Source: Ryuthela nishihirai
Lineage: Eukaryota > Arthropoda > Arachnida > Araneae > Heptathelidae
Direction: 5' to 3'
DNA length: 64,000 bases
NCBI GenBank assembly: GCA_038380435.1
Contig: JAWZYU010000013.1
Coordinates: 68,342,446 to 68,406,445, forward strand
Positions within the stretch are counted from its first letter, which is position 1. Every line of letters begins with the position of its first letter. Under the pieces are notes generated by a model, which worked only from the letters and a program-made list of their open reading frames with translations, ran no database searches and had not been told where the DNA came from. The position numbers and the translations under genes were made by a program. Of this stretch, positions 16,307 to 49,317 are shown piece after piece.

Positions 16307-16477
16307 GGTATCAAGCCAAAGATTCTTATCAGCAGCTAACTGATCTTTTACACGTTTATTAAATTCTCTGTAATGCTTTCTATTAGTACTAGTAGGGTAT
16401 TGATTAAAAACATTCCTGCAGTTCTTTCTTTCCGAAATAAGCTCAAGTGCATTATTACCCAGATAATTCTGTCTCTT

Positions 16478-16912
16478 CTACTCCTTTTTTCCTAAAAGAG
16501 TACTGTTAATTTCCAAAAAAGGCTGTTTAAAATAGCCCCATTCTTCCTCAACTTCAGTTTTAAGCAAACCATGACTGTCATAATGACTAAGTAACCTATC
16601 ATGGTAAGCTTTGACTATAACTGGGTCTTTCAGAGCTTCAGTATTAAAAGTAAATTTTTTAACCCTAGCACAACACTTTTTAAGTTTAAATTGCAAGACA
16701 CTCTTAACAAGGTAATGGTCAGATCCAATTTCAACTCCCCTATATGACCTGGTATTTCTAACAGAACTAGCCCATTTGCTGTTAAATAATATATAATCAA
16801 TCATTTTCCTATGCAGCACATTAGGTGAAACCCATGTGTACTTATGTATGTCGCGGTGTTTGTAATATGTGTTAGTTATTCTGAAACCATTGAGTTTACT
16901 TACCTGTAGGAG
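16478..16912 (-). pseudogene. LINE B endonuclease C-terminal part
   Basis: Holds HKYTWVSPNVLHRKMIDYIL and GSDHYLVKSVLQ, the last endonuclease motifs including the catalytic His of SDH, followed by the charged linker to the RT. The first codons of the open frame in this area come from the inserted SINE. Before the insertion this sequence was continuous with 17311-17925. Confidence 0.75.
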
Positions 16913-17298
16913 TTGTTGGGTTGTTTTACCTCTGAGCGGCACTTTTTTGCACACCATGGGCTAAATGACCAGGTCACATGGACCCCGAAGGCTCAGAGAA
17001 GGTTGGGGGAGGGCACCCACTGGAACAGCTGTTGGGAGACAGATTGTAGCCTCCCGTCAAGGCCATCCAGCGTGTTCTTTAACGTGCACAGGGTATGGTT
17101 CTCCCGCACACCGGGCCACAGCTTAACGTCCCATCCGATGGACGGCGGCCTTTCCAAGCCCATCGGTGTCCCCTAATGACCGTGGGCAAGGCGGGGAATT
17201 TTGCGGAGATAAATCTCAACGCTGACCCAGCTGGGACTCGAACCTGGGAACTACACATTACGAGCCTGGCGCGCTACCGACTGAGCCACCCCAGCCCC
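16913..17298 (-). mobile_element. tRNA-Thr-derived SINE inside LINE B, perfect 12-bp TSD
   Basis: A full-length SINE of 386 bp in antisense. The duplicated target TACCTGTAGGAG is at 16901-16912 and 17299-17310. Read in its own sense it starts with a tRNA-like head (GTGGCTCAGTCGGTAGCGCG, anticodon loop region TCGTAA, GGTTCGAGTCCCAGC). It continues with a body of about 300 bp and ends in a short CAACCCAACAA tail. It inserted after the LINE, which gives a relative age. It has no coding capacity and is presumably mobilised by a LINE in trans; which one is not clear from the 3' end. Confidence 0.95.
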
Positions 17299-17310
17299 TA
17301 CCTGTAGGAG

Positions 17311-17925
17311 ATGTTGCCCATTGTCATTGCAGCTGCCAATCCCAAAAAGGCCAATCACCCCTCCCCAAAGGTCAGAGTCATTACCAACTTTGGCATTGAA
17401 GTCACCTAGAACAAGGGTAATATCTCCTTTCTTGACAGAATTCAAAATATCCTGAAGTTGTCCGTAAAATCTATCCTTCTCATCCTCATCAGCATCCTCA
17501 TTGGGGGCATAACAGCAGATATCATTCAAGTATTTAATGCTTGTCTGAAATTTTGCAGTAAGAAACCTTTCATTAATGCACTCATATCCCAGAAGAGCAT
17601 CACCAGCATGTCTGCTGAACAGCAGACCCACGCCTTGGTGATGTTTGGTCAGGCCGAGAAATAATAAATTATAACGGTAGAATTCTTGTGTGAGTACATC
17701 AAGCGAATAAGTTCTATGCAGAGTCCTCACATTCCAACTACTTATGGAGAGAAAATGGTTAGTGGGATGTTTAAAGAAACTATGTTTAATGAGAGCGGGA
17801 ATGCCGACAATATCAAACAGCCCCCTTATCGCTGGCATTAGCCAAAGACCCGTTCCCCCAGCACTAAAGTCTGAAGCCATCTGCATTGGAAGACTTCCTC
17901 CAATGTATAATTTATCGATGCCCAT
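17311..17925 (-). pseudogene. LINE B endonuclease N-terminal part
   Basis: Contains SSWNVRTLHRTYSLDVLTQE, then a junction LGLTKHHQGVGLL where about 35 residues of copy A are missing, then CCYAPNEDADEDEKDRFY and GDFNAKVGNDSDLWGG. The open frame runs on into the SINE at 17298. The catalytic Glu motif is gone, so this is a decayed endonuclease. Confidence 0.8.
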
Positions 17926-18534
17926 AGAAGCAAGAGTTCAGGTACTTGCGATGACCTCTGCTCAGGATTATCCACCAACTGATAAAACATATCCTGTGAT
18001 TCCATTCACTTGGGACTGTCAACCGACAAAGAAACAAAAAACATAGCTGCAGATTTTTCCTTTACAGAAGCCACCAGTACAGAAAATTCAGGATCCACAA
18101 TCAAGCTCAGAGCCTTATATCAGTCCAATTGGTTTGTATTTTCAGCACCAGCACTCTGAGTGGTTGACCACTCCCCAGATCAGTAGGCCACACTAATCTG
18201 GCAGCCCTCTCCTTCCGTTCACTTCCACAAGAGAGTTTCTCTTTTAAAAGGTACTAACGGCCTGCACTAGGATGGCCCGTTCTGTGCATCATCAGAGGGG
18301 TTTGGTGCACAGCTCTCCTTCCTGTGACTACCTAGCTACGATTTACAGACCCTGATTGGTATTCCTGTTTTAAATATTTCATTTTGAACTTTATCTGTTA
18401 TTACATTTTTCGAAACAAAAAAACTTATTTTGGAAGTTATATATTTTGGTATTAGTAGAGATTCTTAGTTTCCCATTAGCATAGAGTTGTTCCTTAGTTT
18501 ATGGAAAGCAGTGCATTAGCAGAAATTTATGCAT

Positions 18535-18584: not shown

Positions 18585-19271
18585 ACGAACGACATTTACC
18601 ATAATCATTCTCGAAACCTGAGTTGTTACCACACATTAAAGTTACATTCAATTGCATTTTCGAGACACCTAATTTTTAGCTTCTTTTAAAAAATAAACGA
18701 ATTAATGTGTCCTCTCTGTCTGTCCATCTGTAGACATTTAACTTGTTTGTTTTTAAAGATAAAGTAAAAATTATTTTTCAGCTTGACAATTATTCATGAA
18801 ATAATAATAATTTAAATTTTGACAAGATTTTTCTTTTTTGGAAAGCATTATTAGAAACTATACTGGTTTTGAAAAAATTAAACTTTTTATGCTAATTGAA
18901 TCTAAAGGGATCCCTTACATGTTATGCTGAAGACGCAGCAAATGTATACTCTGGTGATGTGCTGCATGCCTTTTCAAAAAGAATTGAATTTGACCTGGAA
19001 ACGATTCGTTGTTAGTTTTCAGCAAACAAATGTCTTGAAATATACAGAAAACTGTATCCATATATTTTGAGCTCAAAAATAGTAATTCTTTCGTACATGT
19101 CAAATAATGAAAAGGAAACTTTTTTCTCAAAACTGCTTTTGAGAGAGCATTTAACTATAAATGTTTAGGAGTAAATTTGGATTCCAACTTGAAAAGCATT
19201 ACTCGTGCAAACGTTCCGATATAAAATTAAGATATATGTGACTTAGATTTTATTATCTGAAACCTATTGTA
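18585..19271. other. A/T-rich DNA, nothing recognised
   Basis: No supported gene or repeat lies between the hairpin and the foldback MITE. Confidence 0.5.
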
Positions 19272-19484
19272 CAGTCGCTCAAAAAAGTATCCGAACGCTA
19301 TGGTTGCATACAAAATTCAAAAAAAATATCTGGCAAAGATTTTTTTAGAAATTAATGATCTGGCAACCTTCGTGTACTGTACACGAAGGTTGCCAGATCA
19401 CTAATTTCTAAAAAAATCGTTGCTAGTTGTTTTTTTCTAATTTTGTATACAACCATAGCGTTCGGATACTTTTTTGACCGACTG
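19272..19484. mobile_element. Foldback MITE, Tc1/mariner type, family M3
   Basis: A 213-bp element that is one long imperfect palindrome. Ends are CAGTCGCTCAAAAAAGTATC and its inverse (GATACTTTTTTGACCGACTG), flanked by TA on both sides. The centre is CACGAAGGTTGCCAGATCA in inverse arms around GTACTGTAC. A second copy lies at 60180-60393. The TA target and termini fit Tc1/mariner-type mobilisation; the source transposase is not in this window. Confidence 0.9.
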
Positions 19485-19608
19485 TACATGAAATTTTAAT
19501 CGGACTTCATCATGTCTTGGTTTACTTTGCTATTCAGTATGGAATATTTAGCTGGAGAAGTAGATAGGAAAATATTCTTCGTAGTTTGATTTTAACTCAT
19601 TAAAAATG

Positions 19609-21290: not shown

Positions 21291-21761
21291 GTGCGGCCGG
21301 CCTGTTTCTGTCCAGTTGTGCAGTCTGGTTGCACCTGTGTGGTGTCAACTACGGATAAGTCCACCAGCTGGTGGAGCTAGTTTGAAATATCTCTTAAGAC
21401 TGGTGCATAATTGACTTCATCATTTCTATGTATTTATCATTTGTAATTTCATGCTCTGTAAGCATAGTCCATATGAACAGTAGACTTCGTTTATCTGTTA
21501 AGATACATTTACAAAAGTTCTTTTTTCTTTTTTAAAAATGATATTTTCACATCATTTCGGATTGCACCCATTGTTATTGTTAATGACTTAAAAACTCGTT
21601 TTTCCGAATTAAACGACTGGGAGCGCTTCCAATTAGAGGAAGTGCGGATTTCATAGATGGGATCCTTTCTTTCGACGAAGTCAATTAAACGTTAATGAAA
21701 GTATAAAACTTTTTTCATTATTTAAACAGCAACAAAAACGCTACTTAGCAATTTTCAAACA
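21291..21761. other. A/T-rich DNA, nothing recognised
   Basis: No supported feature. Confidence 0.45.
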
Positions 21762-21763
21762 GT

Positions 21764-22500
21764 TTGGCAGATGATGTTGATGAGATGAACTCTTTCATTC
21801 TAGCTGTTGATGAAACAGGTCGTAGAGTAGGTTTCGTCATAAACAGAGAGAAAACTGAAGTGATGAAAATTGGTCAGGCAGGCTGTGATTCAGTTAATAT
21901 GAATGGTTGCAATCTTGAACAGGTGTCACAGTTTAATTATCTTGGGAGCTATGTAACAGATACTGGTGATGTGCGGCATGAGATTAACAGACGAATAGGG
22001 ATTGCTGCCGGGACTTTTAAGAACATATGGAGATTGTGGAGAAATAGGCGTAGACACTTAAAAACTAAAATTAGACTGTATAATAGTTTGGTTCTTTCTA
22101 AAGTTATTTATGGTAGTGAAACGTGGATCCTTTTTAAACAAGATAACAGGAAACTTGATGGTTTTGATTCTAGATGCTTACACGATATCTTGAGCATTAG
22201 GTGGTTCAACTTTGTAAGTAATGATGAGGTTAGGCAAAGGAGTTTGCAACCTCCTTTAAGCAGCATATTGTGCAGAGAGAGACTCCGTTGGTTTGGCCAT
22301 GTTGCCCATATGAATAATTATAGATTGGGGAATAGGGTTATGAACAGTGTGCCTCCCTCAGAAAGAGGGGGAGACCTAGGATGCAGTGGGCAGATAATGT
22401 CAAACAGGACCTTGTTAGAATTGGTGTAGCTGAGGACAGACTTGCTTGGAGAACTAAATTTCATGGTCTGGTTGGATCTCCGTACCCCATGGCTGCTTGA
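21764..22500 (+). pseudogene. LINE D RT C-terminal domain
   Basis: Open for 221 codons to 22429 with the typical thumb and C-terminal region: FNYLGSYVTDTGDVRHEI, YNSLVLSKVIYGSETW, and RERLRWFGHVAHM. After about 22370 the intended frame shifts by one base and continues as GRPRMQWADNVKQDL and WRTKFHGLVGSPYPMAA, ending in a TGA at 22498-22500. That stop lies inside the conserved 3'-end motif, only a few bases before the tail, so the element has almost no 3' untranslated region. Only the frameshift distinguishes this stretch from an intact end. Confidence 0.8.
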
Positions 22501-22504: not shown

Positions 22505-22551
22505 GGTGGTGGTGGTGGTGGTGGTGGTGGTGGTGGTGGTGGTGGTGGTGG

Positions 22552-22619
<68 letters not shown>
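22505..22619 (+). repeat. GGT/GAT microsatellite, tail of LINE D
   Basis: A GGT run to about 22551 followed by an uninterrupted GAT run to 22619. Translated, it gives poly-Gly and poly-Asp, which is not a real protein. Confidence 0.95.
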
Positions 22620-22621
<2 letters not shown>

Positions 22622-24753: not shown

Positions 24754-25793
24754 GACTGTTTATAAGAAATGTTAAAAAACTGAAATAAATTGAATTGAAC
24801 TGAAATGTAAATGAACAAATCAATTCTTTTAAAAAGACTCTTATTTTACACAAAAACGTTTACGTTTGTCAATTGCACCTTTGTACCATAATATTTCAAT
24901 TTAAAAGTGTAATTTCACCATTATTAATAACTTGGATGTTTTTGGCTTTTAGTAACATACGTAAATAACCATTTTAATTATTTCTAAAGCAGTATGTGCA
25001 TTAACAAATGTTAGACTTGGGTTTAAGCTTGAATACATAAAGCTTAGACTATGCTACGGTAAAAAATGTACTGAATTTTACTTTGCGATAAAGCGATAAA
25101 TCTTTCAACCAGTTCTTTTACGTTCAACCATTTGTTTTACGTTCCAGACCTTTCTTATACTACGATTGCATCAAATTAGGCATAATAAGAAGTGTTCTGT
25201 TTAAACATGCTTGAGTTCGTGATATTTGCTCACACAATTTGGCAGCACACGCAGCCTCCAGGAGTGTTACAAAAGCTCACCTGAACGATTTGTTATTGGT
25301 TTGTTTGTGTTCTCCATTCTAACCATTCTGTAATATTTCTGAAAAACGATATACAGAAAAAAAATTAGGAACGGAACAAGAATTCTAAAAGGCACATGCA
25401 GAAAAAGGAAACTAAACGTGAATGGGGTGAATTTCACATTATTTACACAGGGAATTTAGTAGGGGCAAAGTGATCGATTGATCAGAGTGCATACAGGAAC
25501 GACAGATCAAGGCTTCACTGTAATGGACATGCAGCCAGTATATGCGTTAAAGTTTCATCGCGTGATTTACAAAAGGGAAAATTATTATTTTCTTAATCAT
25601 TAGGATAATGTGAATGTTTTATACCTAGTATTGTCAAATCTAATGTCCCCATATACTATCAAAATCAAAATTTATACGCGAATATTACAGACTCAGGAAA
25701 AACAGTATTTCACTGTGATAAAATGATATATCACTGATCAGTGTTCTGTTTAAACATGCATAATAATATTCCGATTTTATTGCAAATGTCGGA
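24754..25793. other. A/T-rich DNA left of the Polinton
   Basis: No supported feature. The six bases before the Polinton terminus are GTCGGA. Confidence 0.45.
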
Positions 25794-25796
25794 AGT

Positions 25797-26677
25797 AGTA
25801 ACATAAATGAGAGTTTTGGGCCAGTAAATGGGTCCAGAGAATTCTGTGAAAATCCATGGGAAAAGTTATGGGGGATGAGGTAAAAAGTACGTTTCTTGTG
25901 GTTTTTTGTGAAAATATGTGTGAAAATTAGAAAAAAAGGGGTTTTTTTTTTAGTATGTGAAAAACTAATTTAAATTTTTTTAAAGATGAGGTTTAAACTA
26001 ATTTGTGAATTAGTTTAAATGGATTAGTTTGAAATGAGGTGTGTGTATATGAGATAAAAAATGATGTGGTTTGTTGAGTTATCGTACACTTAATGGATTA
26101 TTCGGTTGTAATAGTCATGTAAATCGGTGTTTCTTGTGTTTTTTTCTGAAAATATGTGTTAAAATCAGAAAAAAAAAACGGGTGTTTAATGTGAAAAAAG
26201 TAATTTAGGTTTTTTGGGCAGATGAAATTTAAACTAATTTGTTTAACTAATTTTCAGAAAAAATGAGGTGCGTGTGAAAGAGATAAAAAAGATGTGGTTT
26301 GTTGAGTTATCATATACTTCACTGGATTATTTGGTTGTAAAAAGCCAGGTAAATCGGAGAATTTGACAAAGTCAGACAGTTTCGAGAAATTTGTTTGAAA
26401 CATGACAAAATCAACAGGTAAAATGACTTTTTCTGGGAGTCTGATGAAAAGATAGACTTTGAATATCTGTGTGAATGTATAAGAGAGGGTACTAGATGAA
26501 AAAAACATTTTTTTGGAAGTGAAAAGTGATTTAGGTTAGAATAATTTTGAGAATGTATGAAGTTTGCAAAGAGAGAGAAAAGTTTTATGTTATTACGGAG
26601 CTAAACGGAAATCAGTCTCGATCTCCTCAAAAGAACAACGGGCTCGAGATTTAGTTTCATTGAACTAAATCTCTTAT
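25797..26677 (+). repeat. Polinton left terminal inverted repeat
   Basis: About 880 bp, starting AGTAACATAAATGAGAG and ending CTAAATCTCTTAT. The complement of 36355-37147 aligns along its length, for example GGGATGAGG, GGTTTGTTGAGTTATC, GAATTTGACAAAGTCAGAC and AACAACGGGCTCGAGATTTA. It contains imperfect internal duplications (two blocks with TGTGGTTTGTTGAGTTATC). Divergence of the arms indicates age or lack of homogenisation. Confidence 0.9.
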
Positions 26678-26775
26678 TCACTAAACATCAGCGTTAAAGT
26701 GAAGTTGAAAAAATAATGGTTTGAGAACATACATAATTTTTATAAAACGTGCAAATAGATGTATATTTCGAAATG
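26678..26775. other. Polinton DNA between left TIR and inserted retroelement
   Basis: A short A/T-rich stretch without features. Confidence 0.4.
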
Positions 26776-26788
26776 ATTGTATTTAAAA

Positions 26789-27332
26789 AAAAAATACCCC
26801 CCAATAGGGGACCACCTTGTCATGGTGGGGGGCCTAGGGCCCAGCAAACCAGCTGAAGGCTTTGCCGGCCGGATTGGGTCCCCGGCTGGAGCATTGCCAA
26901 AGCCAACCGAGGTCGACGATGCTGCCAACCGGTTCTCTGGCCGGTTGGTCGGGCCAGCGTTGAGACCTCACCTATCAGGAGCTCTGGGTGAGCTGTTTGA
27001 GGGCTCGGCAGAACGGGTTTGGCTCCTAGTAGGCCAGAGCCCTCACAAAAGTCTGGGTCTTACTAAGAGTCTCCACCCCAGGAGCCGAGTGAATTTGGAT
27101 CTATATATCCTTGTTCATGGCTAACCGGGGAATAGATTAAAGTAAGGTTTCTTCCGGTAGTCAGCTTTCATTTTATATGACTGCTGCCATGTGAGGCTGG
27201 GGTTGAGGTGCGCCTATAGGGCGTATTCCTTGCCCCCGGCTCTAGATAAGCACGGCTTTTCATAACCAGGTAGTGTCGTGAGACAGAACCGGGAATTGCC
27301 GTGGTTGCATAAGATCGCAACGAAACAGATCA
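26789..27332 (+). mobile_element. GC-rich 544-bp retroelement with 13-bp TSD
   Basis: A discrete GC-rich insertion in A/T-rich DNA. The duplicated target ATTGTATTTAAAA is at 26776-26788 and 27333-27345. The 5' end (GGGGACCACCTTGTCATGG) resembles the start of the R1-like LINE at 54036 (GGAACCACCTTGTCGTGG). The 3' end is GCAACGAAACAGATCA without poly-A. I see no protein-coding frame that fits a family. Best reading: a short non-autonomous relative of an R1-like LINE, joining a LINE 5' UTR to a LINE 3' region. Confidence 0.75.
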
Positions 27333-27402
27333 ATTGTATTTAAAATAGTTTTTTTTAGCCATCAACTAAAAGTTTTCCCTGTAGTGGTTGTAAAGTTGCT
27401 TT

Positions 27403-28650
27403 TCATTCTGAGACAATTGCGCAATATACGTGATATAATTCGTTTGGCAGTCTATTTAATTTAAATCTTATTTCGATGTCAGCAGCTGCTGATAATTCAT
27501 ATAGACGTGATTCGTATTTGCTGACATCGAAGTAGAATATCGGATACAGTTTCATAAAATCTTGGTAACTGACTTGTGTACCCGAGTCGATATATATATT
27601 TTTGCTGCATGTAAGCTGTTGTAAACTCGCGCATAATCTAAACTATTGGGTTCAAAGTTGCACTCGAATTCTTGTTTGCGAAACTGTTTGCTATTCATTC
27701 TAATCTGAATCCGTTCTAGTAGCATGTGATCAAACACCATATTGTTTCTGGTTTGATTATTTATTCGGTTAGACTTTTGTAAGAAGACATAAAGATGGAC
27801 GGGTATATTTTGAGTTGTAGTACCCTGCCAACTGACATGAGAGTCAATTCGAGTATCAGATTTTTACAGTTTACACGATTCCCAAAAGATTTCATGTGGA
27901 TTGCCGCTTGTTAACTGAGATTCTAGTTTTGCAAGTACTTATAGTGATGGTTCCACTTTTGGAATAAACGAAGATACGTGAGATATTTCAAATCTATACG
28001 ACGTAGCCCCAACTCTCTGAATAATGTCTTTGTCATCACTTTGTTCTAGTTTTATGGTATGTTTTACACCGCGAAACACTTTATCAACGTCTCGGCAGAA
28101 TCCAAACAGCCGATTCAGTGGTAAGAATAAACTTACATTTTGACTATTTTTGTAATTTCATTTCTGTCTGAGAATCCTTGATTGAATTCAAGATTTTTCT
28201 TCAACGCTTGCGCAAAATCCTTTATCTTATTATTCGTGTCCAGTTTATCTTCGCCTCCGTCGTACAAATACTTATTCATTTTCGAACTGTCTGCAGTATC
28301 TTTTAACCGCATCATACTTGTGGCAGCACTGTGTGAAAAGTCTTCGGTAAAATCAATTAAACTGTGAATCGTGATCGTCACTCCTGGCAATTTAATATCT
28401 TCCAATTCTCTGTTTTCTATATAATATTGAGCTCTCTTAAAAATGTTGTACCCATTATTGACCATCGTAACTACATCATTGCCACCGATAGTAGACCTAT
28501 CTAATTTCAGTATTTTGACTCTGACGTGTATATAACTGTTGTGCAGATGTAGGAAAACGTCCATATCTTTGGTAAATATTTCGTATTTTTCGAGATTTTT
28601 AACATTAACAATGGTTTCCGATATTCTAAGTACTCATATTTTGTCGTGGA
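27403..28650 (-). pseudogene. Polinton capsid-family protein (probable major capsid), broken
   Basis: Reverse-strand remnant of about 400 codons, most like the double-jelly-roll capsid family of Polintons (from memory of the family, so the major-capsid label is an inference). Readable parts: N-terminal EIFTKDMDVFLHLHNSYIHV upstream of and into 28564; 28133-28564; a segment near 27965-28130 with LNRLFGFCRDVDKVFRGVKH; 27552-27740 with NNMVFDHMLLERIQIRMNS; and a C-terminal PIFYFDVSKYESRLYELSAA. Several stops and frame changes separate these parts. The retroelement at 26789 lies beyond its 3' end and does not disrupt it. The gene cannot give a full product. Confidence 0.75.
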
Positions 28651-28862
28651 ATTATCGTCTATTGAGTCTTCGAACAAATTCTAATAAGTAGTTTCAACGT
28701 TCATCCTATACTTACTCTATGACTTTATAATATTTAGGCCATTTCCGTAAATTAACTAATTAAGAATATTTCTGCTTTTAGAGGATATTTTCTCGTTTTT
28801 TCGAACAATAGGCGACGGATTTGTATAAAATATTTTAATTCGCTTTCTCAGTATCTTCATCT

Positions 28863-29573
28863 TTATTTTGGTCTGATGTGTAACATATAAGTCACGTTTT
28901 CCTTGTTCAAGTCAATTATTTTATTGTTCTGATCGGTTACTTTCATTCTAACATTGTAAATGTAATCAGTTTTATGCAACGATAAATATATGGGGAAGAA
29001 TGGATTTGTGTCGATTAAACTGCCAGGCGGTGTTTGAGGCACGAAACTATACAACACGTCGCTCTTCTGGTTATTAAGATAGGAAGATTCGACAATAGAA
29101 CAGTGAATTAGAATGCGATCAACCCCTCTCGTTATGTTGGGTGGGAACTTTCCTTCGTTTTTTGCTGCATCGATAATTTTCGATTCGAAACCTAGTATTT
29201 CTCGTAACTTTCCTTCAGAAAAATCTATTTTATATCCTCTTGCCAAACGAAAAACAAATCTTAATGTGAAGAGGTTGCTTTCTAGTATTATAGGGCTATG
29301 ATCCCTAAAGACATTTTTCAAAACATCATTAAATCCGTCTATATCGTACATTCCATTCGGGAAAAATATTTTATTCTATTGCTTTGCATTGAAGTATTTC
29401 AGAGTCTTATTGTTATATTCATCACTGATGTTGTACCAGGAATACCACATATTGCTACCGATCAGTGCTATCTCGTATTCACCATTGAGTGTGATCGGCG
29501 TTTCATAATTAATTTCCAAATCTTCGGGGTTGTATGCCGTAATAGTGGTGGATTTGATAGTTATAAGTACCAT
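28863..29573 (-). pseudogene. Polinton minor-capsid-like protein, one premature stop
   Basis: A 236-codon reading frame interrupted only by a TAG at 29376-29378; the two open parts (29376-29573 and 28863-29351) are in the same frame. The N-terminal part contains TAYNPEDLEINYE and EYEIALIGSNMWYSW. The C-terminal part contains GFESKIIDAAKNEGKFPPN, DRILIHCSIVESSYL and SFVPQTPPGSLI. These features and the gene order suit the small single-jelly-roll (minor capsid or penton) protein of Polintons. Which virion position it takes is inference. It sits between the capsid gene and the protease, all leftward. Confidence 0.75.
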
Positions 29574-29650
29574 CTTTATTAATATAGTGTAGTACTATAC
29601 AGTACTTATATGCTGGTTGTTACAAACAATTCATTCCTATCATTAGGAGT

Positions 29651-30004
29651 TTATTCAAACTGATACAATACATCGTATGGGCTTATGTTATTATTCCTTC
29701 GTTTAATGCAATAGATGCAATACTAACCGCATTTTACAGAGTAATTTGCTTGAATTTGCGAAGAGTTATACATGATCGGCTTTGAAGATGTAAGTAAATA
29801 GTGTTTTATTTCTTCTGGTGGCGGTAAACCGAATGGATCAAAGTACTCGATGTAAGGTAACTTCGCATCATTGAAATAAGCTACCCAATGAGTTCCTGAA
29901 CCACGGGAAACGTCAAAGTTTACTATACCATTTTCGTTCTTGAATATTTTTGTTGGCAAAGAATCCATAGAGTATATTCCACGGAATCCTTTTTCGTTTT
30001 TCAT
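29651..30004 (-). pseudogene. Polinton adenain-like cysteine protease, stop beside catalytic Cys
   Basis: A cysteine protease of the adenovirus type that would mature capsid proteins. Visible: GTHWVAYF with the catalytic His, YFDPFGLPPP with the acidic residue region, then QIQANYSVKCG with the catalytic Cys. An in-frame TAG at 29723-29725 follows CG directly, and the frame continues for about 23 more codons to a TAA at 29651-29653. A full-length start is uncertain: the ATG at 30004 begins within sequence that still looks protease-like, and upstream codons (about 30005-30022) may once have been coding. The product is lost or truncated just after the nucleophile. Confidence 0.85.
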
Positions 30005-30023
30005 TATATTTTCGATATCTAAG

Positions 30024-30431
30024 TTACTTTATAGCTCTTTTTTTAAGTCCCAGAGCTATTTGTTTTCCTGGAATGTACAAAGCTTTTCCCTTTCTTTTAT
30101 TTTTAGATAAGCCAGCTGCTCTTTGCTTTCCGAGAATGTATAACCCTTTTCCTAGAACTTTGTGCAAGCTTAGTACCAGCATATCTCGCAGCTCCGACTG
30201 CAGCTGCTTTTCCCAATGCTACGAGTGCAGGTATTAAGAACGGCAGAAATCTAACTATCTGTGTTTTAGTGAAACGAAGTCGAACTAGCGTTGTAGATTT
30301 TTCAGTTTCAAAGTATCGTTACCTTTCTTCTGTGGATCAATATTTAAAGCTATAGGTTTGTTATTTACAAATGCACCCTTCAATTTTTGTTTTTCTCCAG
30401 GCGTTAAACGAGTTAGATAAGTGTGATACAT
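30024..30431 (-). pseudogene. Polinton small basic protein with hydrophobic middle, frameshifted
   Basis: Starts with an ATG at 30431 (complement) and reads YLTRLTPGEKQKLKGAF. It changes frame near 30283 into TTLVRLRFTKTQIVRFLPFL and a hydrophobic Ala/Gly/Val-rich stretch. Near 30160 it changes frame again into GKGLYILGKQRAAGLSKNKR and ends GLKKRAIK at a TAA (30024-30026). Repeated GKG/GKA-LYI motifs and the basic, hydrophobic layout match a small conserved Polinton protein of unproven role, perhaps core-associated or membrane-active. It needs two frameshifts to read through. Confidence 0.6.
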
Positions 30432-30486
30432 TATACTTTATTTTTATAAGTATCACGTACTTATATTTTATATATAAAAATTAAGC
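30432..30486. promoter_or_regulatory. Candidate divergent promoter of the Polinton gene blocks
   Basis: A 55-bp gap between the leftward basic-protein gene and the rightward zinc-ribbon/PLA2 gene. It contains the inverted pair TATAAGTA (30445-30452) and TACTTATA (30458-30465) and a TATATAAAA run at 30471-30479. The sequence ATATAAGTAC also occurs upstream of the minor-capsid gene (complement of about 29601-29611), which supports a shared element. Activity is inferred only from position and motif. Confidence 0.5.
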
Positions 30487-30966
30487 TTGTATTGTGTAAA
30501 GTGCAAAAGGAAAACTTTAATGGATAACGTTGAATATGTCACATCAATGAATAAAAGAGTAATGATGAGAAGTAGATGCCGAACGTGTGGAAAAATGAAG
30601 TATAAATTTGTGAAACAGAAAGGAAAATTTGTAAAAGTTGCAGATATAGTAAGCTGGATTAAAGAAAAGTTTAATCCACCCGAAATGCACATTCCAGGTT
30701 ACCAGTTTTGTGGACCGTTTACGAAACTGGAGAAAATGTTAATGCGAGGAGATCGTGGTATTAACCGTGTGGACAAAGCCTGCAAAAAACACGAAATTTC
30801 TTACAGCAAATCTACAGAAATTAAAAAGAGACAGGAAGCCGACCAAGAATTATTAAATGATTTGGATGAAATTCAGAATCCAACTTTAGGAGAAAGAATT
30901 TCAAGAACGATAATCAAACCAATCATTAAAACAAAGAAACCGTTCGGTTTAGGGCACAAGAAATAA
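30487..30966 (+). CDS. Zinc-ribbon plus PLA2-like fusion protein of Polinton
   Basis: An uninterrupted 159-residue frame, the only intact sizeable Polinton gene here. Residues 1-40 carry CxxC pairs (C3/C6 and C31/C34), a zinc-ribbon type known in virus-like genomes (DUF5679-like). Residues 67-125 resemble the phospholipase A2-like domain found in parvovirus capsids and Polintons: PGYQFCGPFTKLEKML, RGDRGINRVDKACKKHE, then SYSKS. The catalytic His is H102, but the neighbouring residue is Glu (E103) rather than the usual Asp. The calcium-loop CGPGT reads CGPFT (F78). It may therefore be inactive. A Lys-rich tail follows. Start is the ATG beginning MYCVKC, just after the divergent gap. If active such a domain would act on membranes during entry; this is family knowledge, not shown here. 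Confidence 0.8.
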   Translation: MYCVKCKRKTLMDNVEYVTSMNKRVMMRSRCRTCGKMKYKFVKQKGKFVKVADIVSWIKEKFNPPEMHIPGYQFCGPFTKLEKMLMRGDRGINRVDKACKKHEISYSKSTEIKKRQEADQELLNDLDEIQNPTLGERISRTIIKPIIKTKKPFGLGHKK

Positions 30967-30982
30967 GATTCTTTCTTCCATT

Positions 30983-31714
30983 TACTATGACCCATTAAAG
31001 GGATTTTCCGCTATAATAAAAGATCTAATGCGCAACACTTGATTGACGGAAAAAGAAGTAAAAAGATTTCTCCAACAACAAGATGTGTACACGTTACACA
31101 AACCCATTTATATAAAATTCCAAATCAGACGGGTTTATGTCTCGAATGTAGACGACCAGTGGCATAGTGATTTAATCGATATGCAAAAATTTAAATTTCA
31201 CAATAACCACACGAATTACATTTTAAACGTGTTTGACATTTTCAACAAATTCGCCTAGGCAATACCTATTAAAAAGAAAACGGGTAATGAGATTACCAAA
31301 GCATTTGTCGAAATTTTTAAACAACGTAAGCCATCCAAGTTACAATCGGATAAGGGAATTGAGTTTATCAATAAAGAAACTCAAACATTGTTTAACCAAC
31401 GAGGTGTCCATTGGTTTGCCACTGAAAGGGAGACCAAAGCTCAAATTGTGGAAGGATTTAATAGTACTCTAAAGACAAAAATGTGGAAATATTTCACTGC
31501 CAATAACACTAGAAAATGGATCGATGTTATACCAAAACTCGTTAAGAATTATAATACGTCTTATCACAGATCAATAAGAATGACCCCAAAAGAGGAAAGC
31601 TTGCAGAAAAACAAAGATATTCTGTATTTTAATCTGTTTGATAAATGTATTAAAAATATTGCAGAACCGATCGATTCATACAATGCCACTACGAAACACT
31701 ACTTCGTCAACTAG
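30983..31714 (+). pseudogene. Polinton integrase (DDE), two premature stops
   Basis: A retroviral-type integrase that would insert the element. The frame begins with YYDPLKGFSAIIKDLMR (start codon not identified), meets a TGA at 31040-31042, continues through EVKRFLQQQDVYTLHKP, QWHSDLIDMQKF (first Asp), meets a TAG at 31256-31258 and continues through KLQSDKGIEF (second Asp) and QIVEGFNSTLKTKMW (Glu). All three catalytic residues remain. Both stops are in the same frame as the rest, so only two point changes break it. The gene ends at the TAG at 31712-31714. Confidence 0.85.
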
Positions 31715-32564
31715 ACCATTGTTCAAAATAGTCCAATGAATACATTGGTGAGAAATAAAGATGGGCTTTACGTTCCACGAAGCATTGCATTCGACGGGCA
31801 TAGTTTCAATGCAGAAAAAAAAACAAATCCTTGATATTGCCGATTCCGAGTCGGATTCTGCTGCTGAACTAAGGGTTATTTGGAAAAAGTCGCATTAACT
31901 GGCGAGGATGTCTTTAATGCGAACAATAAGAGAATAGGAAATCTCGGGGAACCGAGGTACAACAGAAATGCGACAACAAAAAGTTACGTTGATGGCTTGA
32001 CAAAGTTAGATCCTAACCCATCATTCCAATGCTCTATTGAGAAATGAAGATGGACTTCTTTCATCAAGTGGAAGCAGTTTCAGTGGCGATGCAAATGGAA
32101 AACGAATTATGAATGTTGGCACCCCAATTATAAACAATGATCCTGCTACGAAGCTATACGTTGATAAAAAATACTGTTATTTGCCTTACCTATGGTGATA
32201 AAGAAGTGAAAAAAAACATGTTGCAGTCTCATCCAAAAAACACAAAATTCGACCTACTAACGCCACCTATTTTCAAAGACAATTACCATCTATGCATTTC
32301 CAATGGATATGCTGCACAACAAATCCCTTTTTTAGTATAAATTATAGTATCAAGTTGGACGATCAAAAATTCATTGAAGTAATAAGACCACAACTTCAAC
32401 AATTTTTTTCTGCTATTCCAATAAACAAGAAATTTGACAGGGGCAGCAAGATTAGTGTTTCACTTGCTAGACACTATCCAGATCCTAAAGAAAGAAGAAA
32501 GGTACCTGGAGGTCTTGTTTCAGACTTTCATCACTGGGAATATGTCTTTATTTTATATGAATAA
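31715..32564 (+). pseudogene. Fibre-like repeat protein of Polinton, frameshifted
   Basis: Three degenerate repeats occur in changing frames. One, near 31900-31990, reads NKRIGNLGEPRYN then ATTKSYVDG. Another, near 32090-32170, reads GKRIMNVGTPIINN then PATKLYVDK. A weaker one, near 31870-31885, ends TKGYLEK. The pattern RI-N-G-P followed by TKxYVD recalls phage tail-fibre repeats. A 90-codon frame downstream (32292-32564) ends FHHWEYVFILYE and may be its C-terminal domain or a separate gene. At least two frameshifts are needed. Role as a surface fibre is inference. Confidence 0.55.
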
Positions 32565-32571
32565 AGATGAA

Positions 32572-33290
32572 ATATCTTAAGCAATTACACACTATTATAG
32601 ATGAAACCTTGAAATCGCGAGCTACTAGAAAATCGAAAATTGAAGACACTATTTTGGGAGAGGAACAAGTTAAGGAAACGCTCGAAGAATTTCACAAGCC
32701 AGTGGTCGAACGGTTAAAAGTTTGGAAACTGTGCGTGAAGAAACCATGAAAAACATACAAGATGTAGTGAAAACTTTAGAGCCAGAAGAACCCACTGAGA
32801 TGCCGGAAAAAACGTACGTTTATAATCCAGATTGCAACTTGCAAGATAACATATTAAACCAATATAAACTAAAACCTCCGAGTGATATCTTACAGGCGAG
32901 AAACCCCATTCCTGAGCTGAAAGAAATTATTTACCAAACAATCGGGCATCTTCAGAAACGGGGGGGGGGGCAATAAGGCTACAGAAACCAAACGCTATGG
33001 TAGAACTACTGAGAAATATCGAATTATAGATAATCACAATGAAGCACTTAGAAATATTTAAGGTCGATTAAAATGATGCTCACTGTAATAGAAAGTCAAC
33101 AGTTTGGTTTTGACTATACAAGAGTTTCGACGACATATGCGAAATATTATCAAACTTCGTTGCCAGTAAACGAGCTGGAAACACCAGTACAGAAGTGGTA
33201 AATGAAATTGTCGAAATTTTGGATATTTTGCTAAAAATGATATTATTGACAAAAAGAAACATAAGATTATGTTCAATAACATTCGTATTG
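32572..33290 (+). pseudogene. Charged, probably helical Polinton protein, frameshifted
   Basis: An N-terminal part (from an ATG near 32570) with YLKQLHTIIDETLKSR and EEQVKETLEEFHKPVVERLK. A duplicated-looking join follows at about 32722 into METVREETMKNIQDVVKTL and the proline-rich PEEPTEMPEKTYVYNP. A G-run at 32961-32970 shifts the frame, and recognisable sequence continues to about 33290. The composition (Glu/Lys-rich, few aromatic residues) suggests coiled coil. I do not recognise the family with confidence; its place between integrase and polymerase is constant with Polinton accessory genes. Confidence 0.5.
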
Positions 33291-33432
33291 TTTAGAAATT
33301 TATTCTTGGACACACACTACAGTCACGTTTATTTCAACTTCCGATTCTGCAAAATATTGGATGTTTTGCATTATCGGACCATGATTATTAGCTACTGTAT
33401 ATAATAAAGAGGGTATAACTGCTAACTCAAAG

Positions 33433-33615
33433 ATGAGCGCAACTATTTAATGTACCAAATGTGGGGTATTTATTCTCAAATCCAATATGAACCGTCATAT
33501 GCAAACTTCTCGCACATTTGAAAAATGCGAATTTTGCAATTCCAGCTTTAACAGAAAAGACAATTACAATCATCATCTAAATCAATATTGTATAAATAAA
33601 ATTCAATATAAATAA
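33433..33615 (+). pseudogene. Small C2H2-like zinc-finger protein of Polinton
   Basis: A 60-codon frame with one in-frame TAA at 33448-33450. It contains CTKCGVFILKSNMNRHMQT and EKCEFCNSSFNRKDNYNHH, two CxxC...H-type fingers. It lies just upstream of the polymerase N-terminus, and similar fingers occur near the start of Polinton polymerase regions. Confidence 0.6.
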
Positions 33616-33668
33616 ATAAAAGCAGTGCCTTTGATAAAACGTTTCGCATATATAAATTGATAACATAA

Positions 33669-34918
33669 ATGTCAGAGAAGACAAAAAGTTTCCTGGAGAA
33701 AATTAACAATAAATGGAAATATGTAATTAAGAATAAACTCAGTCAGCCTCTAAAAGTTAGATTCATAATACAAATAAAATTTAAAAAGCAAACGGATCCT
33801 GAAGGACAGAAAGAAACATATGCACATTTTTCGACATGTAACGAAAATCAATTTGCCTACCTATCTCAATGAATTACTGAAAAATGCTTATGAGAAAATT
33901 GATAAGGACTTTGAAAATTTTATACAAAAGTGAAGTGGATGGGTGTTTGACAAAATGCTTTCTATGGAAATTCAAATGTCTCAGTATAATGCAGTTGGAG
34001 AATCTGCTTTCGTAAATTTACGACAACATTTAAAATCTACAAAAGGAATAGTGAATGTTAAAAACTACGACAACAAATTTCTCTTGTGGTCAATATTATC
34101 AGCTCTACATCCTGCTAAGACAATCCGCAACGTGTGGAAAAATATAAAATATCTGAAAACGCCTTAGTCACATCTTCAATGATTTATCCAGTAACCTTCG
34201 ATCAAATCCCGAAGTTCGAGGTTTAAAATAATATTTCTATAAATCTCATTATTGTTGGATTAAAAATATTAGTAGGGTTACAGCATACCTTTCAAGACAT
34301 AATGGTAAATTTTATCCCTGCCCATACTGTCTTCATAATTTCACTCGCGACAATTTACTAAAGAATCACGTAGATAATTGCAAATCAAACACTTTACAAA
34401 CTATCAAGTTTCCCGAAGCAAATAGTACGAAATTCCATACATTTAAAAACGTTTTGAAGCACCCATATGTGATTTGTGCAGACTTAGAATGTTTTTCGAA
34501 ATGTAGAAGAACTGAGAATAATCCATGTAGGGTGCGAACTAAGTATTTAGTACCGTCAGGATTTGCATATATTATAGTTGGACCGGAAGGTAAACTGATC
34601 AAAATCAGAATGTAGAGAGGGAAAAATGTAACAGAAAAATTTTAGAATGAAATGATCGAAGCCGAAAATTTGATCAATGATTTGAAGAAAAGAAATGTTA
34701 AGATGACTGATTTTGATTTGCAAATTTTTACTGGAGCAAAATATAATATTTGTGGGAAAATTTTAGGAACTGATAGAGTAAGGGACCACGATCACTTAAC
34801 TGGAAAATACAGAGGTTCACACTTGAAATACCAGTGTTGTTTCATAATCTCAAAGGATTTGATGGCCACTTTATATAAAAGATTTGTATAAATTTAAAGA
34901 TAAGAAGAAAATTTCTTA
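33669..34918 (+). pseudogene. N-terminal part of protein-primed DNA polymerase B (Polinton), truncated
   Basis: Remnant of the Polinton polymerase, N-terminal region only. Open pieces: 33669-33872 (KKQTDPEGQKETYAHFST), 33943-34167 (STKGIVNVKNYDNKFLLWS), a stretch near 34310-34600 with a CxxC and H-rich finger and a candidate exonuclease-type motif (CADLECFSK), and 34652-34891 (KILGTDRVRDHDHLTGKYRG, an HNH-like zinc motif). At least four stops or frame changes separate the pieces. Recognisable sequence ends with an in-frame TAG at 34917-34919. The palm with the polymerase active site is missing, so replication function is lost. I recorded the breaks and did not rebuild the protein. Confidence 0.85.
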
Positions 34919-34985
34919 GTAGTTGCATAAATGAGAGTTCTGGCACAGTAAACGGGGTTCGAGAATTCTATTAAAATCCATGTGA
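34917..34985 (+). repeat. Internal copy of the Polinton terminal motif
   Basis: CATAAATGAGAGTTCTGG and AGAATTCTATTAAAATCCAT match the outer 60 bp of both long inverted repeats (25800 onward; complement of 37085-37140), then similarity stops. It faces right, as the left end of an element would, and lies exactly where polymerase similarity ends. Confidence 0.75.
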
Positions 34986-35640
34986 TTAAAACCAATGTGT
35001 AGTATGTAAAACATTTTGAACCCAGACGAACTTAAGTAATGGGGTCGAGACCAATACCCACATGTTCAATATGTAGTACACCCTCAATGAAATCCAATAA
35101 TATTAGTTTCAAATCTGTAGCGTGATTACAAGAGAAGTTATGAGATCATAAATTTAAGAGGGTTCGACCCACTTTCTCGGGTCCGAACCCGATTCTGGTC
35201 AGTTCAAAAAATAGTGTCTGCTTAGTATTATTGAACAACACCAGAATGAGCTCTGTAGCATAATTAGATCAAAAGTTATTTCAACTTTTGTAAATTGCAA
35301 AGAATTAACCCTCCCTCCTCCTTCCCTCTCCCACTCCTCCTCGTCTCCCTCCTCCTCCCCTCTCCCATAGAATCAGTGTTATTTAAAATAATGAGCAATA
35401 TTACAAAGTAATTTATCGCACTGGTTGAATTTTTTTGCAGCTAGATATCCAAAACACTGCTACAAAAACTTATTATTTTAGATTTGGGTTAAAGTTCATA
35501 ATACTCTTTGATTTTTAATTTTGTTTCTTTACCCACCACTAGAATATGAGTTGCTGCCAAGTATGGTATATAAGACAATTAGCTTTAAACGCTAGTATCG
35601 TTTCCCTTGATATTGAATGAGACTGCTCATCTATGTAAAG
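34986..35640. other. Polinton-internal DNA without genes
   Basis: Contains repeated GGGTCGAGACC/GGTTCGACCC-like words and a pyrimidine-rich run (35308-35372). No coding similarity. Confidence 0.45.
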
Positions 35641-35961
35641 CCTTTTAGGCTCAGTACATGAGACCTCTTTGGGGGGGTCTGTTGGGGGTGTTAGTTGGTT
35701 CCTTTTAGGCTCAGCACATGAGACCTCTTTGGGGGGTGTTAGTTGGTTCCTTTTAGGCTCACTACATAATACCTCTTTGGGGGGTGTTGGTTCCTTTTAG
35801 GCTCAGTACACGAGACCTTTTTGGGGGGGTGTTAGTTGGTTCCTTTTATGCTCAGTACATGAGACCTCTTTGGGGGATCTGGGGAGGTATTAGTTGGTTC
35901 TTTTTAGGCTCAGTACATGAGACCTCTTTGGGGGAATCTGGATGGAGGGTTAGTTGGTTCC
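35641..35961 (+). repeat. Minisatellite, six units of 44-60 bp
   Basis: Units begin at 35641, 35701, 35749, 35793, 35841 and 35900 with CCTTTTAGGCTCAGTACATG or a close form, followed by GAGACCTCTTTGGGGG and TTAGTTGGTT. Length differences lie in the G-rich part. Confidence 0.9.
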
Positions 35962-36116
35962 GTGGCCAGCTAACAACATGGTACCTGCAGTTGATTTCAG
36001 TAACCATGGGATCGCTCGGCCCGTGGGGAACCTAGCAGCGGTCATAATCATGGACTCCGGTTCCATTTGTAGCTTATATATAGCTGGAACTGGAGGATCT
36101 TTTTTTATGCTCGATC

Positions 36117-36328
36117 GAAGCAGAGATAGGAAGAGTGGGGAGGAGGGGACAGAGAGAGAGGAAGAGAGGAAGATAGGGGCAGAGGTGACAGAGAGAGAGG
36201 GGAGGAGGGGACAGAGAGAGAGGAAGAAAGGAAGATAGGGGCAGAGGTAACAGAGAGAGAGGGGAGGAGGGGACAGAGAGAGAGGAAGAGGGAGCAGAGG
36301 GAAGGAGGGGACAGAGAGGAGGACCATC
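36117..36328 (+). repeat. GA-rich minisatellite, about 62-bp period
   Basis: Units GGAGGAGGGGACAGAGAGAG start at 36139, 36201 and 36263 with a partial unit at 36301. The strand is almost pure purine, next to the right inverted repeat. Long open frames here are artefacts of low complexity. Confidence 0.9.
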
Positions 36329-36354
36329 CATCGAACTGAACAACTTCCCTAACC

Positions 36355-37147
36355 ATAAGAGATTTAGTTCAAGAAATTAAATCTCGAGCCCGTTGTTCTT
36401 TTGGGGAGATCGAGACAGATTTCTGTTTAGCACGATAACATAAAACTCTTCTCTCTTTACAAACTTCACACATTCTCAAAATTATTCTAACCTACATCAC
36501 TGTTCACCTCAAATTCCTTCTAATTATTTAAAAAATTAACCTAAATCACTTTTCACTTCCAATTTTTTTTCATCTAGTACCCTCTCTTCATACATTCACA
36601 GATATTCAAAGTCTATCTTTTCATCAGAACCCCCGAAAACGTCATTTTACCTGTTGAGTTTTTCATATGTTTCAAACAAATATCTCAAAACTGTCTGACT
36701 TTGTCAAATTCTCCGATTTACAACCAAATAATCCAGTGAAGTGTATGATAACTCAACAAACCACATCGTTTTTTATCTCTTTCACACATATTTTCAGAAA
36801 AAAACACAAGAAACACCGATTTACATGACTTTTACAACCGAATAATCCAGTAAGTTTACGATAACTCAACAAACCACATCATTTTTATTTCGTATAAACA
36901 CACCTCATTTCAAACCAATCCATTTAAACTAATTCACAAATTATTTTAAACCTCATCTTTAAAAAAAATTAAATTAATTTTTCACACACAAAAATTACCC
37001 ACATTTTTTCTAATTTTCATACATATTTTCACAAAAAACCACAAGAAACATATTCTTTTCCTCATCCCCCATAACTTTTTCCCATGAATTTTCAGCGTAT
37101 TCTCTGGACCCAGTTACTGGCCCACCACTCTCATTTATGCTGCTATT
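36355..37147 (-). repeat. Polinton right terminal inverted repeat
   Basis: About 790 bp, the inverted partner of 25797-26677. It ends GAGAGTGG (complement) with CATAAATGAGAG near 37130-37141. The inner boundary is shared at CTAAATCTCTTAT (complement of 36355-36367). Confidence 0.9.
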
Positions 37148-38442
37148 GATGGATTTCATTTGAAGCATGGGATTTTACTTTCGAGATACCTAGTGTGGAA
37201 ATGTTATAATTTGCAAGTTTAAGTTATTACTGAGATCAATTTTGTTTTTACATACAGTTAGCAGATTCATTGGAAACGAAATTCTGATAACAATCATTAG
37301 TAGCCAAGAAAATTTTAAAAACTGTAATTCTATCTCTTTAGCTTTATAAATATAACTGGATGAGATTTTTACCCAAAAGCTACCAGACGTTTCTCATACT
37401 GCTGCTTATTAACAAGGATAATTCCGCGGTCCATTCGTTTCGTATCATCACCAAAAACATGATTTAGATTGAAATGTATTTCATTTCTTCTGTGATTGCT
37501 TATTAAAGGCATTTCGTTGAATCCAATCAAGTTTAATATTAAACGTCGCTGTCCATTTCTAACATCTCCTGCCTAAGCATTTTTTTATCAACTGAACTCT
37601 GTTAACGACATGATTCGCATCGTCCCCAATTAATGAGAACTTTTGTCTCTAATACGCCTGAGTCAGGGCAACTGAGCAAATTTTAGCTTCTTAAAAGTTT
37701 GCTCGCGAATGTTTACCTCAAACTCGTCATCGATCACCATTATCTAACCGTATAAGAACCTCAAGATACACAAAATCTCTTTTAATCACTGATGCATTTG
37801 CCGGCCTCAGATCTAATTAAAGATTCTACTAATTATCTGTTGCTCTGTTGCTCTTTTTCGTTTTTCTGGTTCAATGTTAGCAGTTCTTTTCCTTTTCAAT
37901 CTGCGTTGTTTACATGGAACAGAATAAATGCAAATCTAATACTCCTTAGTTAACTCTGGAGAATTAGCTTCAACCACTGTTGCTTAATTACTTCCGTTCT
38001 TAAGCAATGCAAAACTGCTCTTTGGCATAAGGTATGCAGAACCGATCTCATTTACCCCCAAAATAATCAGTGGTTATTTTGATGAGATGAGATTCTTGAT
38101 AATCCTTATTTTTGATTCACTACTCCCTAGATTACCTTTATTTTTAATCTCTCGCATCCTACATGCAAAAACAACAGTCATGACCATTTCGAAAGAATAT
38201 ATTTTTATTTTTGTTTTCTGCGTTACGAACTCAATTATGGAAATGTTAAGAAATGATTTTCAGACTCGTAATCGTCGGGATTCATTTAAGTTACCTCAGT
38301 ACAAGTAGCTGCGAAGTAAATTTTAATATGATGTAAACGATTATTCAGTAATACCAAAATGAGGAGATGTGAAGACATTCCAAGGAGAGGGCGCAAAATT
38401 GTGATTTTAGCGTTTATTTTCAATTATAAATTGAAATTGTTA
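37148..38442. other. A/T-rich DNA, nothing recognised
   Basis: No supported gene or repeat between the Polinton and the piggyBac element. Confidence 0.45.
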
Positions 38443-45065: not shown

Positions 45066-45505
45066 ATTGTCCAAAATGTCTTACAGATTGCCTTTTCTTT
45101 CATATCTATCGTTTATTCTTGGTATTATAAGCCATTATAATTCTGTTTACAGGTAGCAAGGTAGTCACTGGAAGGAGAACTATGCACCTGAGATGGAGAA
45201 CTATGCAATCTGAGATGATGCAAAGAACTGACCAGAACTAGCACCTAATGTCCGACCCCGCATTCCTGCAGTGCAGACAGTTAGTACCTTTCAAAAGAGA
45301 TACACTCTTGTGGAAGGGAACGGGAGAGGTGGGTAGCAAAATCAGTGTGGGATAATCTTCCTCTTAACAGAAGTTTGTTTGTGGGAGATGACTGCCCCAG
45401 ATGAGTAGATCCGTAGAATACGTTTTATCAGTTGGTGGATAATCCTGATCAGAGGCCATCGCAGGTATCTGAACTCTTGCTTCTAATGGCATCGTCAAAC
45501 CTGAA

Positions 45506-46785
45506 TTGGAAGTCTTCCAGTGCAGATGGCTTCAGAATTTAGTAGTGGGGGAACGGGTCTTTACCCCATGCTGCGATTCAGGGACTGTTTATATTGTCGG
45601 CATTTCCTCTCTCAATAAGCATAGTTTCTTTAAACATCCCACTAACCATTTTCTCTCCACAGGTTCTTCGAACGTGAGGACTCTACACAATTTTTTCACT
45701 TTTTCTCTTGATGTCCTCACAAAAGAATTCCATCATTATAGCCTTGATATTCTCGGCTTGTAAGACACCACATGGACAGATAACGTCAGATCTTAAAAAT
45801 AATCTTAAATTTCTCTTTTCAGAGAGAGAGATGGAAAGCATCTCCAAGGCCTACATTTACTTCTCAGTAGACACACTAGTGATGCTCTTCTAGGAGTGCA
45901 GTAATGAAAGCTGTCCTACAGCTAAATTTTAAACAAGCATTAAAAACTTGAATGTTATTTGCTGTTATACACCCACTGAGAACACCAATGTGGATGATAA
46001 AGATGGTGTTACAGACAACTTCAGGATAATTTGAATTCTTTGACGAAAAGAGATATTACCTATGTTGTAGGTGACTTCAATGCTAAAGTTGGTACTGACT
46101 CTGACCTTTGGGGAGGGATGATAGGTCCTTTCGCTATTGGTAGCTCTAATGGCAATGGACAAGTCTCCTGCAGGTAAGAAAATGTAATGGTTTGAAGACT
46201 GGATGGTTGAGGAAGAATGGTACCGTTTTAAGCAGGTTTTTTTGGAAACTAACATTATTCTTTTAGATAAAAGGCAACAGCGGAAGCAGAATTATTTGAG
46301 TGATTATTTGAGGCACTTTAGCTTATTTCAGAAAGAAAGAACTGCAGGAATGTCCTTAATCAATACCCTACTAGTCCTAATAGAAATAATAGTCGAATCT
46401 TTGGCTTGATGACTTGGCTGACAAAGCCGATGAAGCAGTTAGACAGTAAAACAGAAGAGAGCTGTACCAGATAGTTAATACTTTGTTTGGTAGAAAACGG
46501 ACAGGTATACAGGGATTGAAGAATAAACAATGTGAGGTTATAAAAGATGAGGATTCGGTCATGGCTAGGTGGTTTGAGCATTTCAGTTATGTTCTAAGCA
46601 ATGTGGTTAGTTCTACTCCCATTTTTTGTAAGGATGATAGATGCATTACTGGCTTTAATGTTGGCCCTATAACACAGTCTGAAGTTATTTTGGCTATTTC
46701 TGAACTTAAACTACATAAATCTACAGGAGTAGATGAAATTACTATGGAAATGCTTAAATCTGGGAATGTTTCGGTTACCACATAG
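45506..46785 (+). pseudogene. LINE E endonuclease and RT N-terminal remnants
   Basis: The endonuclease part has SSNVRTL and FHHYSLDILGL, then GDFNAKVGTDSDLWGGM near 46070-46120. From 46200 the sequence jumps to the linker EEEWYRFKQVFLETN. The RT N-terminus (46483-46785) reads FGRKRTGIQGLKNKQ and GVDEITMEMLKSGNVS. The central endonuclease portion with the SDH motif is deleted. Many stops; non-functional. Confidence 0.75.
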
Positions 46786-48468: not shown

Positions 48469-48472
48469 ATAG

Positions 48473-49312: not shown

Positions 49313-49317
49313 TTTAT

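Follow-up and report, generated by a model that had tools for sequence, protein, structure and literature searches.

An internal Polinton terminus at the break in the polymerase gene of a degraded Polinton from the spider Ryuthela nishihirai

How did a Polinton in the genome of the spider Ryuthela nishihirai come to lose the core of its DNA polymerase? Polintons (Mavericks) are virus-like elements that carry a retroviral-type integrase, a protein-primed polymerase and capsid genes. The copy that raises this question occupies positions 25794-37147 of a stretch of 64,000 nucleotides, analysed here in full and called the window (contig JAWZYU010000013.1, assembly GCA_038380435.1), and its classification as a degraded, dead Polinton/Maverick is close to certain. 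A first-pass annotation, made from the sequence alone, had described it as a Polinton with its virion-type genes kept and its polymerase core deleted. We found that a third copy of the Polinton terminus, absent from that annotation, stands where the polymerase coding ends. The history that we favour, at slightly better than even chances, is that a second, related Polinton became attached by its terminus to the polymerase gene, the remainder being lost afterwards. The features on which this argument is built are the following.

25794-37147: whole degraded Polinton/Maverick (11,354 bp, including a later insertion of 544 bp), recognised by its inverted arms, gene remnants and left end motif AGTAGT
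25788-25793: candidate left target-site duplicate GTCGGA (4/6 match to 37148-37153)
25794-26677, plus strand: left terminal inverted repeat (left arm), 694/743 aligned columns identical to the right arm
33052-34917, plus strand: N-terminal part of the protein-primed polymerase, in several frames, stopping at the internal tip
34918-34985, plus strand: third copy of the Polinton terminus (internal tip), in left-end orientation, found by alignment and blastn
34986-36354: non-coding stretch of 1.37 kb with two minisatellites
36355-37147, minus strand: right terminal inverted repeat (right arm), from local and global alignment to the left arm
37148-37153: candidate right target-site duplicate GATGGA (4/6 match to 25788-25793)

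The internal terminus

The internal tip starts at the terminal AGTAGT and is identical to the left end of the element at 55 of 68 positions without gaps (blastn E 3.7e-12). Its alignment score of 74, where 100 shuffles reached 31 at most, rules out a chance resemblance. A scan of the window at 60% identity returned three tips only, namely the two ends of the element and this one. The homology begins at the terminal base and ends after about 70 bp; beyond the tip there is no relation to the arms, as the scores on the reverse strand remain at the shuffled level and the forward match consists of the 68-bp tip only. The stretch that separates the tip from the right arm contains minisatellites at 35620-35961 and 36124-36323, with periods of approximately 48 and 62 bp.

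In gapped pairwise comparisons the left and right tips differ at 10/70 positions, the left and internal tips at 11/68, and the right and internal tips at 17/69. When changes private to one tip were counted over 70 ungapped columns, the left tip showed 1, the right tip 7 and the internal tip 12 (all three differed in 2 columns), while 2.3 would be expected of an arm.

Extent of the polymerase remnant

The polymerase remnant was delimited with a 929-residue open reading frame (ORF) of a 15.1-kb IMG/VR contig (L007), of which a longer, 1,314-residue form is present in contig L008. We take this ORF to be a polymerase on the basis of its motifs, those of the palm presumably lying at positions 501, 670 and 767; it matched no Pfam family, and a search of the PDB with it gave no polymerase. 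Two of the eight stop-free pieces of the remnant matched it credibly (34232-34615, E 5e-12; 34777-34878, E 1.3e-8), and the six others did not. The pieces from 33052 up to 34232, which had no match at E 0.01 to the 1,314-residue ORF either, are presumed to be polymerase; a Pfam scan placed a C2H2 finger in one of them. Directly before the internal tip, one frame may be the polymerase continuing to the junction. A protein search with a polymerase piece gave no candidate, under a length rule that excludes full-length polymerases.

When the 929-residue ORF was compared with the whole window by tblastn, its residues 6-219 and 232-248 aligned collinearly at 34244-34875 (E 5e-13). The four remaining matches (E 5.0-9.4) all lie outside the element, and residues 249-929, the last 681, gave nothing credible anywhere in the window. 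The loss of the core (palm) is thus supported by comparison with a related polymerase, the predicted remnant reaching as far as the second exonuclease motif. This agrees with the statement of the first-pass annotation that the palm is missing; its account of a deleted core holds as regards the loss, but is incomplete, since a second Polinton terminus stands at the break.

The annotation had also reported the absence of the packaging ATPase, and we recognised none: the pieces scanned gave no such Pfam family, the only P-loop pattern falls within the left arm, and the ATPase-like ORF of L008, itself a weak probe (weakly assigned, best E 0.0009, below the cut-off), had no match in the window at E 0.01. 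A location between the protease and the penton was rejected by eye, as the protease-like reading nearly reaches the start of the penton and leaves no room. We take the ATPase as lost from this copy, as degraded copies lack genes. In vertebrate Mavericks the ATPase is described as part of the polymerase module (PMC8097293), and therefore one missing block could explain the loss of both the polymerase core and the ATPase.

Origin of the internal terminus

While the arms, the gene remnants, the missing palm and the second tip at the break are directly seen, the order and cause of the events behind them are reconstructed. It is known of the family that in an intact element the integrase joins the AGT-ended termini to host DNA, 6 bp of which are duplicated, and that the polymerase starts at the ends of the linear DNA when copying it. 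After such an insertion the copy would have decayed, its arms coming to differ by about 7% and stops and frame breaks being gathered, and a retroposon would have landed beside the left arm. The terminus of another Polinton would have been joined to the polymerase gene by nested insertion, and a later deletion would have taken the body of the second element together with the rest of the polymerase (two thirds of it), and probably the ATPase as well. Another copy is favoured over the element's own end as the source of the tip because of the number of private changes which the tip carries (12, compared with the 2.3 expected).

Several observations weigh against this history. No part of a second element other than the tip was identified: the homology stops after about 70 bp, the other end of the element to which the tip belonged is missing, and no source was recognised for the 1.37 kb beyond the tip. 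Neither flank agrees with the six bases ahead of the tip (1/6 each), and the target duplication of the whole element matches at only 4/6 bases. Moreover, small indels inflate the number of private changes counted without gaps for the internal tip, and the divergence of the right tip is likewise unusual (7 private changes against 2.3 expected). The confinement of the arm homology to about 70 bp and the unrelatedness to the arms of the sequence after the tip would also fit a plain internal deletion of the polymerase core and ATPase, in the course of which the tip of another Polinton, about 70 bp long, was captured as repair filler. Random filler, however, is not expected to start at the terminal base of an element, as this tip does, and we regard such an origin as possible but rather doubtful.

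Self-integration, which has been described for other transposons, would mean that the integrase of the element attached a left-type end of this very element to the polymerase gene. The internal tip is indeed about as close to the left end as the left end is to the right one (11/68 and 10/70 mismatches), but the homology should then run the full length of an arm, and the 12 private changes among 70 columns are far from the 2.3 expected; this course of events is improbable. It would be more surprising still if the segment 34918-37147 were a non-autonomous mini-Polinton of 2.2 kb, inserted in the polymerase gene and sharing the right arm of the element. A Polinton tip stands at either end of this segment, the two inverted relative to each other, but they form the least similar pair of the three (right and internal, 17/69 mismatches), the six bases beside them match at 1/6, the left tip lacks the rest of its arm, and there is no other right arm in the window. 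We consider it scarcely to be expected that the internal AGTAGT tip and the right arm constitute a usable minimal Polinton of 2.2 kb within the large one, to be copied out with the help of a relative's integrase and polymerase, much as internal terminal repeats are reported to be used in Teratorn.

The wider use of this locus lies in the mark that it bears at the lost polymerase, the terminus of what is probably another element. If the same were repeated in other copies, it would mean that nested insertion is a way in which Polintons harm each other. In the parts of the literature on nested and degraded Polintons that we drew on, no Polinton end inside a polymerase gene was found, which does not prove that none exists. 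Apart from this single unusual and informative scar, the copy is a genome fossil of the ordinary sort. Degraded Mavericks are common, their share of the vertebrate loci being given as 96% (PMC8097293), and the spider element is a further example.

Arms, ends and later insertion

The left end of the element (25794) starts with AGTAGT, i.e. the (AGT)2 motif, with which the coordinates 25794-37147 agree on this side, and the right end (37147) is two substitutions off the same motif. The commonest ends of vertebrate Mavericks are (AGT)2//(ACT)2, and intact elements have 6-bp target duplications (PMC8097293). The 6-bp flanks of the present copy agree at four of six positions, a level reached or exceeded by 5.4% of random pairs of flanking 6-mers, which makes a target-site duplication plausible but unproven.

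In a local alignment of the arms (25796-26677 with 36355-37145), 693 of the 741 aligned columns are identical, and gaps take up 191 columns. In the global alignment from the two ends (694/743 identical) there are 22 transitions and 27 transversions, giving a Kimura two-parameter distance of 0.069. The outermost 68 columns are more diverged (10/68) than the rest (39/675; Fisher p 0.0095). The annotation had named as a point of refutation that the two repeats might belong to different element families; this is ruled out by the identity of the 694 columns, and the arms are of one family. A short palindrome is present at the inner edge of both (26649-26676 and 36357-36384).

Between the left arm and the first coding piece lies a later insertion, likewise missing from the first-pass annotation:

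26789-27332: retroposon-like insertion, G+C-rich, 544 bp, flanked by 13-bp direct repeats

The direct repeats (26776-26788 and 27333-27345) are the reason why this block is regarded as a retroposon-like insertion, and they exclude it as a part of the element. Its only match elsewhere in the window is one of 44 bp (80%) at 54032-54075.

Genes of the element

The remaining coding pieces are arranged divergently, with those of the left half on the minus strand and those of the right half on the plus strand.

27403-28633, minus strand: remnant of the major capsid (double jelly-roll) gene, in several frames (PF21738, sub-threshold)
28863-29573, minus strand: penton (minor capsid) gene, nearly full length, with one in-frame stop (homologues, fold matches)
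29590-30028, minus strand: putative remnant of an adenain-type protease, with stops (PF00770, E 0.015, below cut-off)
30024-30437, minus strand: presumed small late-protein remnant of minor capsid type, two overlapping pieces
30478-30966, plus strand: PLA2-like protein with an N-terminal zinc ribbon (DUF5679), open frame (PF08398, PF18930)
31043-31714, plus strand: integrase remnant, two pieces in the same frame split by a stop (PF00665, PDB matches)
31640-32564, plus strand: presumed fibre-like repeats and following pieces (pattern scan)

Thus the arms, the capsid-, protease-, integrase- and polymerase-type genes that they bound, and the divergent layout are as the first-pass annotation had them. 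Its statement that the virion-type genes are kept is not borne out: the capsid, penton and protease pieces, and also those of the integrase and polymerase, are broken by stops or frame changes, and the sole uninterrupted frame, that of the PLA2-like protein, itself looks damaged.

PF21738 matches two of the four capsid pieces scanned, collinearly but under the curated cut-off (E 0.0011 and 0.012); the other two (28133-28630 and 27403-27639) gave no family in the Pfam scan. On the penton gene, residues 1-229 of P0001 align across the in-frame stop with 54% identity (E 1.6e-79), and its stop-free piece of 170 residues has 56 homologues. An AlphaFold model of the penton (mean pLDDT 72, pTM 0.53) gave 85 Foldseek matches up to E 10. 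The two at E 0.001 or below are both uncharacterized, and ranks 3, 5, 7 and 8 are a putative penton of a MELD virus (E 0.0022) and putative minor capsid proteins of giant viruses, these having low TM-scores of 0.36-0.39. A search of solved structures with the penton piece gave no match, and scans of viral contigs with the penton, alone and as profile A1, returned no relatives. The protease piece has a weak match to the adenovirus endoprotease (PF00770), and its reading past the first stop was made by eye and is presumptive. The two overlapping pieces at 30024-30437 gave no useful Pfam family and are presumed to be a small late protein.

In the right half, the second integrase piece matches the rve family (PF00665) at E 1.2e-4, below the Pfam cut-off, and 15 of 17 PDB matches are named integrase or Pol (best E 0.0014). 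The Pfam scan of 31259-31711 showed rve only and no chromodomain. The repeats that follow, which we presume to be fibre-like, were located by a pattern scan (NATTKxYV at 31691 and 31976, NDPATKLYV at 32148); 32202-32561 matched no Pfam family.

The PLA2-like protein is the one gene of the element with Pfam matches above the cut-off (PF08398, E 7.6e-14; PF18930, E 1.3e-9). It has 181 homologues, most of the 120 listed being unnamed; the named ones among these come from spiders, a scorpion, ants and a bee, which suggests an arthropod-type element, the host not being identified thereby. Twenty-two of the 120 were aligned (profile A2). Where six of these 22 start with Met (P0057, P0075, P0076, P0078, P0080 and P0085) the window has TTG, with no ATG upstream of it within the frame. 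The His-Asp pair, whose Asp is present in 22/22 aligned homologues, reads His-Glu, and the gene, though uninterrupted, looks damaged too.

The zinc ribbon lies on the N-terminal side of PLA2 in the window and 10 of the 22 aligned relatives, and on its C-terminal side in the other 12; on a tree built from the PLA2 part, a single change of this order is required (support 72/82). A scan of viral contigs with the single PLA2 protein found no relatives, and one with profile A2 found two small IMG/VR contigs of 3.46 kb (L001 and L002). Each of these very small viral contigs pairs a PLA2-like ORF with an adjacent second ORF, which we take to be C5-methylase-like. A scan of genome contigs with the same profile gave weak PLA2-like matches (31-39% identity) in four bacterial contigs (L003-L006, Halobacillus and Psychrobacillus). 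An Rfam search gave no match, and a PHROGs search weak matches only.

Comparison with known systems

With the vertebrate Mavericks (PMC8097293) this element shares the (AGT)2 terminus, long arms within the reported range of 46-1,447 bp, the polymerase, integrase, capsid and minor capsid, with a candidate protease, and the degraded state in which most copies are found. It differs from them in its length (11,354 bp, compared with 12,723-24,620 bp for intact elements), in that the polymerase core and ATPase were not found, and in the presence of a PLA2 gene. Its modules point apart; in the portions of PMC8097293 used here, the cane toad is the one case reported with such a layout. Insect Mavericks whose CAP protein bears PLA2 likewise have a PLA2-domain protein beside the integrase, protease and polymerase (PMC5803895), and their polymerase has an endonuclease VII-like segment. 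In the present element the PLA2 protein also has the DUF5679 zinc ribbon, and remnants of a penton and a double jelly-roll capsid are present, whereas the portions of PMC5803895 drawn on here report no double jelly-roll capsid in insect Mavericks. A PLA2 entry also appears in a figure legend of PMC3671162.

The adintoviruses (PMC11071296) are, like this element, animal-associated and have an rve integrase, PolB, penton and hexon. They are defined by an OTU-like domain at the N-terminus of PolB and a chromodomain at the C-terminus of the integrase (PMC11071296). Pfam scans of four polymerase pieces gave no OTU-like domain, no further OTU comparison being made. IMG/VR contig L008 (IMGVR_UViG_3300007522_001028) has, on its 15.1 kb, both a PLA2 protein and a polymerase collinear with the fragment in the window. 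It is a distant relative, with 25% identity over the longest aligned stretch, and two of its 16 ORFs of at least 80 residues, the polymerase and PLA2, match the window at E 0.01. Teratorn (PMC6431247) is also a mobile element with internal copies of its own terminal repeat, but it is an unrelated herpesvirus-piggyBac fusion whose internal repeats are reported to be used, while there is no sign of use here.

Other features of the window

Outside the element, the window contains diverged copies in both orientations (10446-13447, 15673-17937, 21749-22429 and 45214-49504) which we take to be of long interspersed nuclear element type; one of them includes a perfect 95-bp tandem duplication at 10748-10932. 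A foldback element with arms of about 110 bp and almost no spacer is present in two copies (19268-19488 and 60176-60397). Perfect GGT and TGA microsatellites adjoin each other at 22505-22620, and a predicted tRNA-Thr (53436-53509) lies within a repeat that recurs at 17002-17299.

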